In this document: piece by piece, positions 19,316 through 22,401 of the stretch
How the letters are laid out: the number at the start of each line of letters is the position of its first letter
Position numbering within the stretch: position 1 is the stretch's first letter
NCBI GenBank assembly: GCA_021740915.1
Contig: JAIOYW010000002.1
Location: forward strand, 248,001-312,000
Source of the DNA: Ignavibacteriales bacterium
GTDB lineage: Bacteria > Bacteroidota > Ignavibacteria > Ignavibacteriales > Melioribacteraceae
Direction: 5' to 3'
Length of the DNA: 64,000 bases
Translations under genes and position numbers: made by a program
The notes under the pieces: model-generated
Seen by the model: the letters and a program-made list of their open reading frames with translations, nothing else
Databases searched by the model: none
What the model was told of the DNA's origin: nothing

Positions 19316-19353
19316 TATTCAATATCCCTTTGCTTTTGATGGATAATTTTGTG

Positions 19354-19383
19354 ATATTTACTGTACAAATGTACAGTAAATAT
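19354..19383. promoter_or_regulatory. LexA-type SOS box in a 30-bp perfect palindrome
   Basis: Arms 19354-19366 and 19371-19383 are perfect 13-base inverted repeats around AAAT. The core is CTGT (19361-19364), eight bases, ACAG (19373-19376), with flanking TA on both sides. This is the E. coli-type LexA consensus TACTGT-N8-ACAGTA. It ends five bases before the ATG of the truncated dnaE, so LexA binding would block its transcription. The location leaves no room for a ribosome binding site between the box and that ATG. Confidence 0.75.
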
Positions 19384-19388
19384 CCGAT

Positions 19389-21062
19389 ATGGAACATACA
19401 AACGAAAATTCATTTGACCTGAGCACATACAGACTTCCCGAAGGCAGAAGGCACGTAACACCTGTTATTTACAATCCTGTGCCGGGTAAAGAGAGCGGAC
19501 TAAACTTCGATATATATGACTACAATACCCTCTTTAATGATCCGGAAACGAAAAAGATAATCAGGAAAGGTGATACGATAGGATGTTTCTATATTGAATC
19601 ACCTGGTATGCGTTCACTTCTCCGGAGATTGAGCTGTGATACTTTTGAAATGCTTACTGCTGCCAGCTCGGTAATCCGTCCGGGAGTTGCCGAAAGCGGT
19701 ATGATGCAGGAATTTATTGCCCGGCACCACGACCCTTCAAAGCGTAAATATCTTATACCGGAAATGGAAAAATATCTGGGCGAGACCTACGGAGTAATGA
19801 TATACCAGGAAGATGTAATCAAAGTTGCACATCATATAGCGGGGCTTTCCCTGGAGGAATCTGATCTGCTGCGCAGAGCAATGAGCGGAAAAATGCGTTC
19901 TCATGATGCAATGCAAAGACTTGAAAATAAATTTTTCACCTCCTGTGCCTCCCGCGGATACAATAACACAGTATCAACTGAACTGTGGAGACAAATAGAG
20001 TCCTTTGCCGGATACGCATTTTGTAAGGCGCACAGCGCTTCATTCGCCCTTCTCTCTTTCCAGGTAGCATACCTGAAAGTACATTATCCCGCAGAATTTA
20101 TGGCAAGTGTACTCAGTAATAGCGGCGGCTATTATTCCGCAGCCGTTTATATACAGGAAACCCGCCGTATGGGCATTACCGTGCTGCTTCCGGATATTAA
20201 CCAAAGCGATTACGAATACACCGGCAAACAAAAGTCTCTGCGCATTGGGTTTATGGCAATCAAAAACTTCCCCCGGAATACTGCTTTCCGCATAATCGAA
20301 GAGCGGAACAAAAACGGGAAATTTTCTTCTCTTGCTTCATTTATCGCCCGAGTGAATACGGGGCCGGAAGAAACTGCTCTGCTGATAAAATGCGGTGTTA
20401 TGGATTGTTTCGGGAAGACACGCCCCACTCTTATGCGCTGGCTCGATATTTATATACGATACCGGAAACAGATGGCATCAGGAATGAACGGGCTTTTCGC
20501 CTCTGAGTTCAGTGATCTCGAAAAAAATGTTGAAACAAAAGATCAGTATTCTATTTCGGAAATATGCGCTATTGAGTATGAGACATTTGATTATATGGTA
20601 ACCCGCCACCCCCTTGAATTTTTCAGCGGAGTTATTAACCGGGAATCAATAATTAAAGCGAAAGATATGTACCGATACAACAAAAAAGAAATCAAGATGG
20701 TTGGCTGGTTTATGACATCAAAACGGATTAAAACTAAAAAGGGAGATATTATGAAATTCCTTTCCCTGGAAGATTTGACCGGAACTTTTGAAGCAGTGCT
20801 TTTCCCTGAGACCTATTCAGAATATGCCGAACAGACTTTATCAATGGGACCTTATCTGCTGAAAGGCACTGTTGATGCAGAGGCGGGAAATAACCTCATT
20901 GTGAATAAACTTGCGGTGCTTTCAGCGCAGGACGTAAAAGCAACTGCACGCAAAGATAGTTCTGAGAATAACTACTACGGTGATGTTGAAAAAGTTAACC
21001 CTGAAGAGTTTTCAATATTAAGCGGTCTCGATCAGGAAAAACTACGTCAGGCGTATTTATAA
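19389..21062 (+). CDS. DnaE-like DNA polymerase III alpha, C-terminal half only (no PHP or palm)
   Basis: The 557-residue protein aligns by eye with the C-terminal half of DnaE. Residues about 57-320 are the fingers (GDTIGCFYIESPGMRSLL, SVIRPGVAESGMM, TYGVMIYQEDV, LLRRAMSGK). About 320-351 is helix-hairpin-helix, 361-370 (QMASGMNGLF) resembles a beta-clamp-binding motif, and 434-520 is an OB fold (IKMVGWFMTSKRIKTKKGDIMKFLSLED). The PHP and palm domains, including the catalytic aspartates, are absent. A stop codon (TAA, 19377) closes the frame just upstream and no palm sequence is found in the window. The ORF has no internal frameshift. The SOS box next to it and the IESPGMR/AESGMM variants point to an SOS-mutagenesis DnaE. 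It could be half of a split polymerase, a dead accessory subunit or a decaying fragment. Confidence 0.8.
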   Translation: MEHTNENSFDLSTYRLPEGRRHVTPVIYNPVPGKESGLNFDIYDYNTLFNDPETKKIIRKGDTIGCFYIESPGMRSLLRRLSCDTFEMLTAASSVIRPGVAESGMMQEFIARHHDPSKRKYLIPEMEKYLGETYGVMIYQEDVIKVAHHIAGLSLEESDLLRRAMSGKMRSHDAMQRLENKFFTSCASRGYNNTVSTELWRQIESFAGYAFCKAHSASFALLSFQVAYLKVHYPAEFMASVLSNSGGYYSAAVYIQETRRMGITVLLPDINQSDYEYTGKQKSLRIGFMAIKNFPRNTAFRIIEERNKNGKFSSLASFIARVNTGPEETALLIKCGVMDCFGKTRPTLMRWLDIYIRYRKQMASGMNGLFASEFSDLEKNVETKDQYSISEICAIEYETFDYMVTRHPLEFFSGVINRESIIKAKDMYRYNKKEIKMVGWFMTSKRIKTKKGDIMKFLSLEDLTGTFEAVLFPETYSEYAEQTLSMGPYLLKGTVDAEAGNNLIVNKLAVLSAQDVKATARKDSSENNYYGDVEKVNPEEFSILSGLDQEKLRQAYL

Positions 21063-22304
21063 ATTCGAGTTTGAGGCTGGCTTACCCGCTTTTGCTATCT
21101 TTATTGCCTGTGTAGAATCGAGCATTGTCATCATACTATCACGCAGAGCATAATAAGGCTGCAGATATTTCTTATCGATAGGTCGAGTCGGAGGAAATTC
21201 CATTTTTAAGTAATTGATGGGAGATCCATTTTTCCAGAAACGAAAATCCAGATGAGGACCGGTTGATAACCCCGTACTTCCAACGTACCCGACAACCTGA
21301 CCTTGCTTAACTCTTGCACCAACAGAGATGCCCTTACCGAATCGGGAGAGGTGCATATAGCCGCTTTGAAATGTCCTGTTATGCTTGATCTTGATATAAT
21401 TTCCTTCGCCCTTTTTGTAGCCCTTAAAAATCACGGTGCCGTCGCCGACAGCAGAAACAGGTGTACCAGTAGGTGCAGCGTAATCAATGCCGTGATGAGC
21501 CCGGTAACGTCTGAGAACAGGATGGAAACGATTGTTTGAGAAACGGGAACTTATACGAGAAAATTTGAGTGGTGCTTTTAAAAAGGCTTTCTGGAGGCTG
21601 TTCCCAAGTTCATCAAAAAATCCGGCTTCGTCTCCTTCGGTAAAATTAAAAGCAAAAAATGGCGATTTTCTATGGAGAAAGAATGCTGCCTTAACTTTTT
21701 CAATACCTATAGGTTCACCTTCAAGGAATTTCTGGTCAAAAACGACCTTAAAACTATCTCCGGGCTGGATAGCCCAGAAATCTATCTGCCAAGCATAAAT
21801 ATCAGCTAATTTGAGTGCGATATTGATATCTTCATTAATATCCTGAAAAGTCTGGTAGAGGGAACTCCTGATAGCTCCCGATACAATACGTTCTTCTATG
21901 AAGGTTTCTTTCTGGGCATTGTACACAATAAGAGAATCCTTAAAATCAAAAACGACATAGTTTTCAAGGTCTTTCTCATAAATAAAATAGAGAAGTTTGT
22001 TTGTCGAATCAGATGCATTATAGGTTATATATTTTTTACCTGGTTTTATTTCACGAACATTAAAAGTACTTCTTGAAAAATTTGCAATATTTATGATTTC
22101 AGCTGCTGAAAACTTGTGGGGAAAAAGAATATCGCTAAGAGTCTGTCCGCTTTTAACATAATTGACATTTTCGAGTAATGAGTCAGCATATATTCCATAA
22201 ATATTTTTCGTGGGAACTGGTGGGGTTTTGTCATTTTCTTCACCTGTGCAGGCAAAAAGGACAAAAAACGCCCCGATCATTAGCAAAATGTTAAGTATTC
22301 TCAT
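21057..22304 (-). CDS. M23 family metallopeptidase lipoprotein (LytM/MepM-like)
   Basis: I start the protein at ATG 22304 (about 415 residues), because the sequence then begins with a lipoprotein signal (MRILNILLMIGAFFVLFAC). The frame is open to 22385. An OapA/LysM-like segment (YVKSGQTLSDILFPHKFSAAEI) precedes the C-terminal M23 domain, which contains HHGIDYAAPTGTPV, GNYIKIKHNRTFQSGYMHLS and GPHLDFRFWKNGSPIN. Such enzymes cut peptidoglycan cross-links in the periplasm. The usual last metal ligand motif HxH reads HLD here, a variant I recall from other Bacteroidota M23 proteins, so activity is likely but not certain. The 3' end overlaps the dnaE fragment by six bases. Confidence 0.85.
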   Translation of the reverse strand: MRILNILLMIGAFFVLFACTGEENDKTPPVPTKNIYGIYADSLLENVNYVKSGQTLSDILFPHKFSAAEIINIANFSRSTFNVREIKPGKKYITYNASDSTNKLLYFIYEKDLENYVVFDFKDSLIVYNAQKETFIEERIVSGAIRSSLYQTFQDINEDINIALKLADIYAWQIDFWAIQPGDSFKVVFDQKFLEGEPIGIEKVKAAFFLHRKSPFFAFNFTEGDEAGFFDELGNSLQKAFLKAPLKFSRISSRFSNNRFHPVLRRYRAHHGIDYAAPTGTPVSAVGDGTVIFKGYKKGEGNYIKIKHNRTFQSGYMHLSRFGKGISVGARVKQGQVVGYVGSTGLSTGPHLDFRFWKNGSPINYLKMEFPPTRPIDKKYLQPYYALRDSMMTMLDSTQAIKIAKAGKPASNSNL

Positions 22305-22401
22305 GAGGTATTTAATTTTTACGAAGTAATGGATAAATTTGGCGTAGAATATAAAAATTATATCTTTAATACTCAACATTTTCAAATTTACAGGCTAAGG
22401 T

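Follow-up and report, generated by a model that had tools for sequence, protein, structure and literature searches.

In DnaE2/ImuC the PHP, palm, fingers, helix-hairpin-helix (HhH) and OB regions lie in one chain, and in the ImuA-ImuB-DnaE2/ImuC mutasome a LexA-controlled DnaE2 is combined with a Y-family partner, ImuB, which is catalytically dead in this cassette. Separation of DnaE is known from the cyanobacterial split-intein DnaE, where the cut falls within the fingers region. The split archaeal family-B polymerases are also made from two genes, and to our knowledge no SOS control has been described for them. As far as the available text of the source reaches, these enzymes (Methanobacteriales; Nanoarchaeum) belong to another polymerase family and are replicative, and the Nanoarchaeum version uses an intein (PMC4104785). 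The cyanobacterial DnaE likewise derives from two separated genes, whose parts carry intein halves and get joined, and in the accessible portions of two papers DnaE is described as split by inteins only (PMC3901139; PMC3919608). The Bacteroidetes have a DnaE2B-PolY-RecA system that needs no ImuB; in the available excerpts DnaE2B is one chain (PMC12926913; PMC6511836).

The locus compared here with these systems lies in a window of 64,000 nucleotides (the whole stretch of DNA that was analysed) from a genome of the order Ignavibacteriales. With the mutasome it shares an apparently LexA-controlled DnaE2 and a Y-family partner; the differences are that DnaE2 is split and that the partner carries catalytic motifs. 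The aspartates of the C-family palm are present as in DnaE2/ImuC, in the N-terminal half (N-half), but the regions that form one chain there are spread over two genes here. The cut is at the palm/fingers seam, whereas the cyanobacterial one is not, and the Ignavibacteriales DnaE2 is without intein. The likeness to the DnaE2B-PolY-RecA system, as presented in the available text, consists of a PolY of its own with catalytic residues, a clamp motif and a tail resembling the RecA N-terminus (PMC12926913; PMC6511836); in contrast to the single chain of the Bacteroidetes, the Ignavibacteriales have two genes cut between palm and fingers.

One survey, in its accessible part, ascribes fragmented DnaE sequences mostly to frameshifts; it rebuilt or removed DnaE fragments, and entered one Ignavibacteria genome as DnaE1+DnaE2 (PMC3919608). 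In the available text of another paper the word 'split' has three uses, never that of a DnaE cut in two, and Ignavibacteria are unnamed in its main text (PMC12926913). Among open-licence papers, covered by titles and abstract beginnings (subscription papers and preprints lay outside this scope), no description of a DnaE cut between palm and fingers was found.

The window ORF very probably encodes one of the two subunits of a DnaE2 (C-family) translesion polymerase that is naturally divided between two genes, a heterodimer that would work with PolY and RecA. The ORF, here called the C-half, and its surroundings comprise the following features:

19353-19384, no strand: perfect palindrome (two 15-bp arms around a 2-bp spacer) that contains the LexA2-type SOS operator ACTGTACAAATGTACAGT and ends 4 bases before the ATG
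19389-21062, + strand: dnaE2-C, C-terminal half of the split DnaE2, 557 aa, with fingers, HhH, clamp-motif region and OB
19389-19511, + strand: leader of about 41 residues, weakly conserved, unaligned in most full-length DnaE2 compared
19533-19955, + strand: fingers domain PF17657, residues 49-189 (Pfam, E 2.5e-40)
20172-20429, + strand: HHH_6 helix-hairpin-helix, residues 262-347 (Pfam)
20469-20498, + strand: putative beta-clamp motif region QMASGMNGLF, with F370 invariant and L369 nearly so in 18 aligned C-halves
20697-20891, + strand: OB fold PF01336, residues 437-501, at 23.6 bits under the curated 27-bit cut-off

The frame of 557 codons at 19389-21062 (+) is uninterrupted, and Pfam gives no PHP or palm match in its 557-aa protein. 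ORF reading and Pfam thus bear out the first-pass annotation, which had described an intact ORF of this length without these two domains and with a stop upstream. The closest in-frame stop 5' of the ATG is the TAA at 19377-19379, within the palindrome, and therefore no palm is coded in frame above the ATG. The same annotation had placed a 13-bp inverted repeat five bases before the ATG; its CTGT-N8-ACAG element stands, but the arms are 15 bp long and the distance is 4 bases. An assembly break at 19389, which it had considered, is excluded because the gene lies mid-contig (G000:C31:267389-269059 of 357,453 bases) and dozens of other assemblies contain the same ORF, likewise standing alone. The finger motif CFYIESPGMRSLL is invariant in 18 of 18 aligned C-halves, and we infer that the QMASGMNGLF region binds the beta clamp. 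A loose pattern for a docking motif in the C-half leader fits 59 of 91 sequences, which is too weak for a claim. On the other strand a convergent 442-aa ORF (window 21057-22385, -) overlaps the final 6 bases of the C-half gene.

Searching the same genome for the palm (PF07733) gives three matches, namely dnaE1 (C33), a mini-DnaE (C18) and a frame on C26; no full-length dnaE2 is among them. Since a full-length dnaE1 is present at G000:C33, DnaE2 is a second C-family polymerase beside DnaE1. The C26 frame is the missing N-half: 566 codons, coding for 565 aa, at G000:C26:389659-391353, on another contig than the C-half. It holds PHP and almost the complete palm model (2-259 of 260) and ends about 45-50 residues past the start of KIDLL, the last catalytic motif. 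The N-half closes a same-strand cluster that is opened by lexA1, one of two lexA genes in the genome. Between lexA1 and a DinB-type polY lie genes of 144, 177 and 293 aa, presumably resembling YjbQ, Ogt/MGMT and DUF72 proteins, and the polY stop is only 11 bases before the N-half. With another ORF, one that stops after the DnaE palm, thus located beside polY in a lexA cluster, the earlier suggestion of half of a split SOS polymerase has become the best reading.

The two halves fit together without overlap. On the DnaE model NF004226 (NCBIfam, 1146 positions) the N-half spans 7-580 and the C-half 588-1065, and on the profile of E. coli PolIII alpha (5fku) the matches adjoin, the N-half reaching up to 586 and the C-half beginning at 591. 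AlphaFold models, made for each half alone with 17-18 aligned sequences, have PolIII-alpha chains as their best matches. Apart from the C-terminal tail, the confidence of the N-half model is lowest at 486-495 and 520-527, which flank the third catalytic Asp (516); with 17 sequences this is only a hint, though such patches near Asp 516 would fit the absence of the fingers chain. All 17 of the 17 aligned N-halves have the aspartates of PDVDLDF and KIDLL, taken here as the catalytic ones of the palm. After the palm helix the aligned N-halves continue for a few to about 33 residues, so that there is no room for an intein in this set, and no intein family is among the Pfam matches of either half. 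The C-half is 43-49% identical to ten full-length DnaE2-like ORFs of the class (the ten that were read) against 26-28% to its own DnaE1; for the N-half the values are 33-37% (best pieces) against 30%. By these identities the split polymerase sits nearer DnaE2 than DnaE1.

Across 391 genomes sampled from the class, the C-half occurs as a stand-alone frame in dozens of genera of the order Ignavibacteriales (families f1-f3), with near-full-length matches at 59-71% identity. The named relatives (best 80 of 282) are mostly metagenome-assembled genomes that carry the labels Melioribacteraceae, Ignavibacteriaceae or Ignavibacteriales or, more loosely, Bacteroidetes and Chlorobiota; these names fit the Ignavibacteria lineage presumed in the first-pass annotation. 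Matches in family f13, which lies outside the order, reach 67-77% over part of the length and about 55% over more. Here too the C-halves stand alone (L093, L094, L105, L106) and N-halves are found in the same genomes; two aligned f13 C-halves have an insert after the HhH region. The f13 split may be either an older split or the result of horizontal transfer. Families f4, f12, f22 and f23 have a DnaE2-like match (43-53%) in 21 genomes, in 15 of them within a frame of 1037-1111 aa. Five of the six shorter frames (G059, G068, G094, G095, G120) lie at or near a contig end. The sixth (G081, f22, outside the order) belongs to an otherwise continuous dnaE2 frame, interrupted by a lone in-frame TAG exactly at the palm/fingers seam (L248:2604-2606); the TAG may reflect an error, decay of the gene or a recent split that arose independently. 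Outside the class, the DnaE2-like matches listed for a phylum-wide sample of 395 genomes lie in frames of 871-1056 aa.

The linkage of the halves has been reshuffled. At 18 loci chosen for nearby halves, divergent, convergent, N-then-C and C-then-N arrangements all occur. At 80 named loci not chosen for nearness, where the C-half ORFs have a median length of 562 aa (388-627), the available flank includes the N-half at 30 and does not at 50, many flanks being short. Of the 30 pairs, 14 are divergent, 3 convergent, 11 C-then-N and 2 N-then-C, with L171 sorted into the last group by hand. In one genome (G218) the N-half stop overlaps the C-half start (TAATG). Such variation in order and orientation can be explained neither by a frameshift nor by a broken assembly. 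Among 49 distinct N-halves whose upstream sequence is long enough, 22 have PolY directly 5'.

Both halves are under purifying selection. Among five pairs compared, three (one of them the own genome with G073) have saturated dS in both halves and give no ratio; the two usable pairs (NG86, dS 0.31-1.56, one of them at 0.98-1.56) yield dN/dS values of 0.039 and 0.075 (C-half) and of 0.025 and 0.057 (N-half). In one more comparison of C-halves, G041/G051, dS is about 2.1.

These results bear on the plainest alternative, namely that a normal dnaE2 was broken by recent deletion, decay, a frameshift or an assembly break. The habit of blaming frameshifts for fragmented DnaE, seen in the accessible part of the survey (PMC3919608), speaks for it, as does the TAG at the seam of the G081 dnaE2, but an intact stand-alone C-half ORF conserved throughout dozens of genera, its low dN/dS and halves that are convergent, divergent, reversed or on different contigs do not agree with it. 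For the order, the recent deletion fragment that the first-pass annotation had offered as its duller option is refuted by the order-wide conservation, the low dN/dS and the reshuffled gene order, and we give the broken-gene explanation as a whole practically no credence. Chance as the source of the stand-alone frame is likewise rejected by its recurrence among relatives and by the gene orders. That the window gene is a conserved working half, and not a decaying fragment, is well supported.

Both halves are present in 86 of 146 genomes from the order, the C-half alone in 10, the N-half alone in 6 and neither in 44, so the N-half is present in 86 of the 96 genomes having a C-half; no fused dnaE2 copy is among the matches listed. 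A half was counted as present at E < 1e-100, plus four genomes judged by eye from partial matches (C-half in G424 and G321; N-half in G332 and G442). The association has a Fisher p of 4e-21, a value that ignores phylogeny and is inflated because of shared ancestry. The 73 genomes that are at least 98% complete show the same pattern: both halves in 46, C only in 3 (G106, G195, G312), N only in 2 and neither in 22. When 14 genomes were searched again with a profile, no N-half turned up in G106, G195 or G329, and the matches in G312 were weak only.

As for the origin of the split, the 22 split sequences form one clade in the N-half tree (support 99/98). The C-half tree unites the ten full-length DnaE2 in a single clade (100/100), and the split sequences are not one clade against these and a very long-branched DnaE1 outgroup. 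There the split label needs 2 changes, and 1 change in 10% of bootstrap trees; because the long-branched outgroup does not resolve, this tree leaves a single origin neither shown nor excluded. The mirror-tree correlation between N- and C-halves, in which the species tree is not controlled for, is 0.70, or 0.86 without G340. In that genome the N-half (L081:5990-7654) is unusually diverged (52%, long branch) and the C-half is typical.

Tight co-occurrence also bears on the idea that during the SOS response the fingers half takes a place in the replicative DnaE1, or poisons that enzyme, altering fidelity or slowing the fork. The genome does carry a full-length DnaE1, and genomes with only a C-half exist. 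Nevertheless, the C-half shares only 28% identity with the corresponding stretch of its own DnaE1, and it is mostly accompanied by its N-half, which makes this idea very unlikely.

The own PolY carries the catalytic motifs DLDAFF and SIDE and a clamp-like QESLF, and its tail IRDKFGYKSIRMG resembles the N-terminus IEKTHGKGTIMRLG of the own RecA (IRDKFGYKSI, cf. IEKTHGKGTI); the sole PF00154 match in the genome is recA. Across 31 distinct PolY sequences the clamp-like motif is found in all 31 and both catalytic patterns in 25, and a strict RecA N-terminus pattern in 7, the remainder being variants judged by eye. In contrast to ImuB, the PolY beside the N-half thus has catalytic motifs. Since PolY is apparently active in most cases, it could be the sole translesion enzyme. 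The C-half would then be a non-catalytic adaptor that binds clamp and DNA and recruits PolY, with the N-half having a role of its own (e.g. as nuclease or regulator). The existence of C-only and N-only genomes is in line with this, and the PHP metal pattern of the N-half looks degenerate, with TDTN where TDH is usual. However, neither the palm aspartates nor the finger residues vary among the aligned halves, and the two genes tightly co-occur. The dead scaffold proposed earlier from the window alone is made less likely by an N-half that keeps the catalytic aspartates and accompanies the C-half so often, and we consider the adaptor explanation improbable.

Returning to the split polymerase, its probable control can be read from the operator boxes. 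The window palindrome (19353-19384), which includes CTGT-N8-ACAG, is the one exact site for ACTGTACNNNNGTACAGT in the 4.35-Mb genome; the next-best site (1 mismatch) lies before the second lexA, and when up to 3 mismatches are allowed the pattern shows no genome-wide excess (51 places against 100 for a control pattern). The own genome codes for two LexA proteins (L043:2796-3425, L007:10556-11179) with operator types ASTGNACNNNNGTNCAST and ACCATACNNNNGTATGGT, and both kinds recur across the order. Using a pattern defined after a palindrome scan of the C-half starts, and hence not chosen blind, we find that 67 of 86 non-redundant C-halves have a palindromic ASTGNACNNNNGTNCAST-type box close to the start at up to 2 mismatches (0.7 expected) and that 48 have one at up to 1 mismatch (0.05 expected). 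The box lies from about 75 bases before to 9 after the first possible start codon. C-halves were clustered at 95% identity, and expectations derive from order-1 Markov random sequences; before clustering, with the own gene present twice, the count is 68 of 88 against 1.1. Another pattern, TACN4GTA, gives no signal (12 of 88 C-halves against 10.75 in shuffles), and the ASTGNACNNNNGTNCAST-type box is absent from all four f13 C-halves. A LexA2 orthologue is present in 23 of 23 tested Ignavibacteriales genomes, and the box stands twice before 20 of 20 LexA2 genes with a located start (at 3 of the 23 loci the script found no start codon), which is independent support for the post-hoc pattern.

LexA1 genes have a different operator. 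The ASTGNACNNNNGTNCAST-type box precedes 0 of 7 examined, and a ACCATACNNNNGTATGGT-type site precedes 4 of 7 by pattern and, by eye, 7 of 8 distinct genes, the eighth beginning at the locus end. The own lexA1 is preceded by such a site with 2 mismatches; over the whole genome, places that fit the LexA1-type pattern with up to 3 mismatches are no more frequent than for the control (94 against 102). Just 5' of recA no box of either LexA type was seen by eye. Taken at face value, the boxes suggest LexA/SOS control of the split DnaE2. With a LexA2-type box at its start, the C-half looks LexA2-controlled in the own genome, where the N-half lies in the lexA1 cluster. We tentatively raise the possibility, itself rather doubtful, of a two-key lock, with the N-half under LexA1 (ACCATACNNNNGTATGGT-type) and the C-half under LexA2 (ASTGNACNNNNGTNCAST-type); an active error-prone polymerase would then form only with both regulons open. 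At several divergent loci a single LexA2-type box lies between the N-half and C-half genes, so that in these other genomes the lock would be reduced to one shared box.

The two halves are complementary, conserved and co-occurring genes under purifying selection with SOS-type operators. From their sequences we infer physical assembly, activity, a mutagenic role and SOS induction along the following lines. DNA damage would lead to cleavage of LexA and derepression of both genes. The N-half would supply PHP and the palm with its metal-binding aspartates and the C-half the fingers, and the two polypeptides may associate non-covalently at the palm/fingers seam, without intein or peptide bond, into an active polymerase. 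This would dock on the beta clamp via the C-half and act in translesion synthesis with PolY and RecA; it is probably error-prone. If this is right, the chain of a C-family polymerase can be divided exactly at the palm/fingers boundary and maintained order-wide as a pair of genes without an intein, and the use of trans assembly to control mutagenesis becomes testable. The pair would also be a natural, ready-made basis for polymerases that are split or conditional.

A different arrangement of DnaE parts is seen in the mini-DnaE on C18, a 549-aa ORF (L003:1126-2775; G000:C18:111960-113609). Its N-terminus is KilA-N / PADLOC PDC-S22-like (E 2e-51) and is fused to a partial DnaE palm plus fingers, with no PHP or OB match. 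No relatives of this ORF were found in viral contigs. Three IMG/VR contigs (L215-L217) code for DnaE relatives with 37-40% identity to the C-half.
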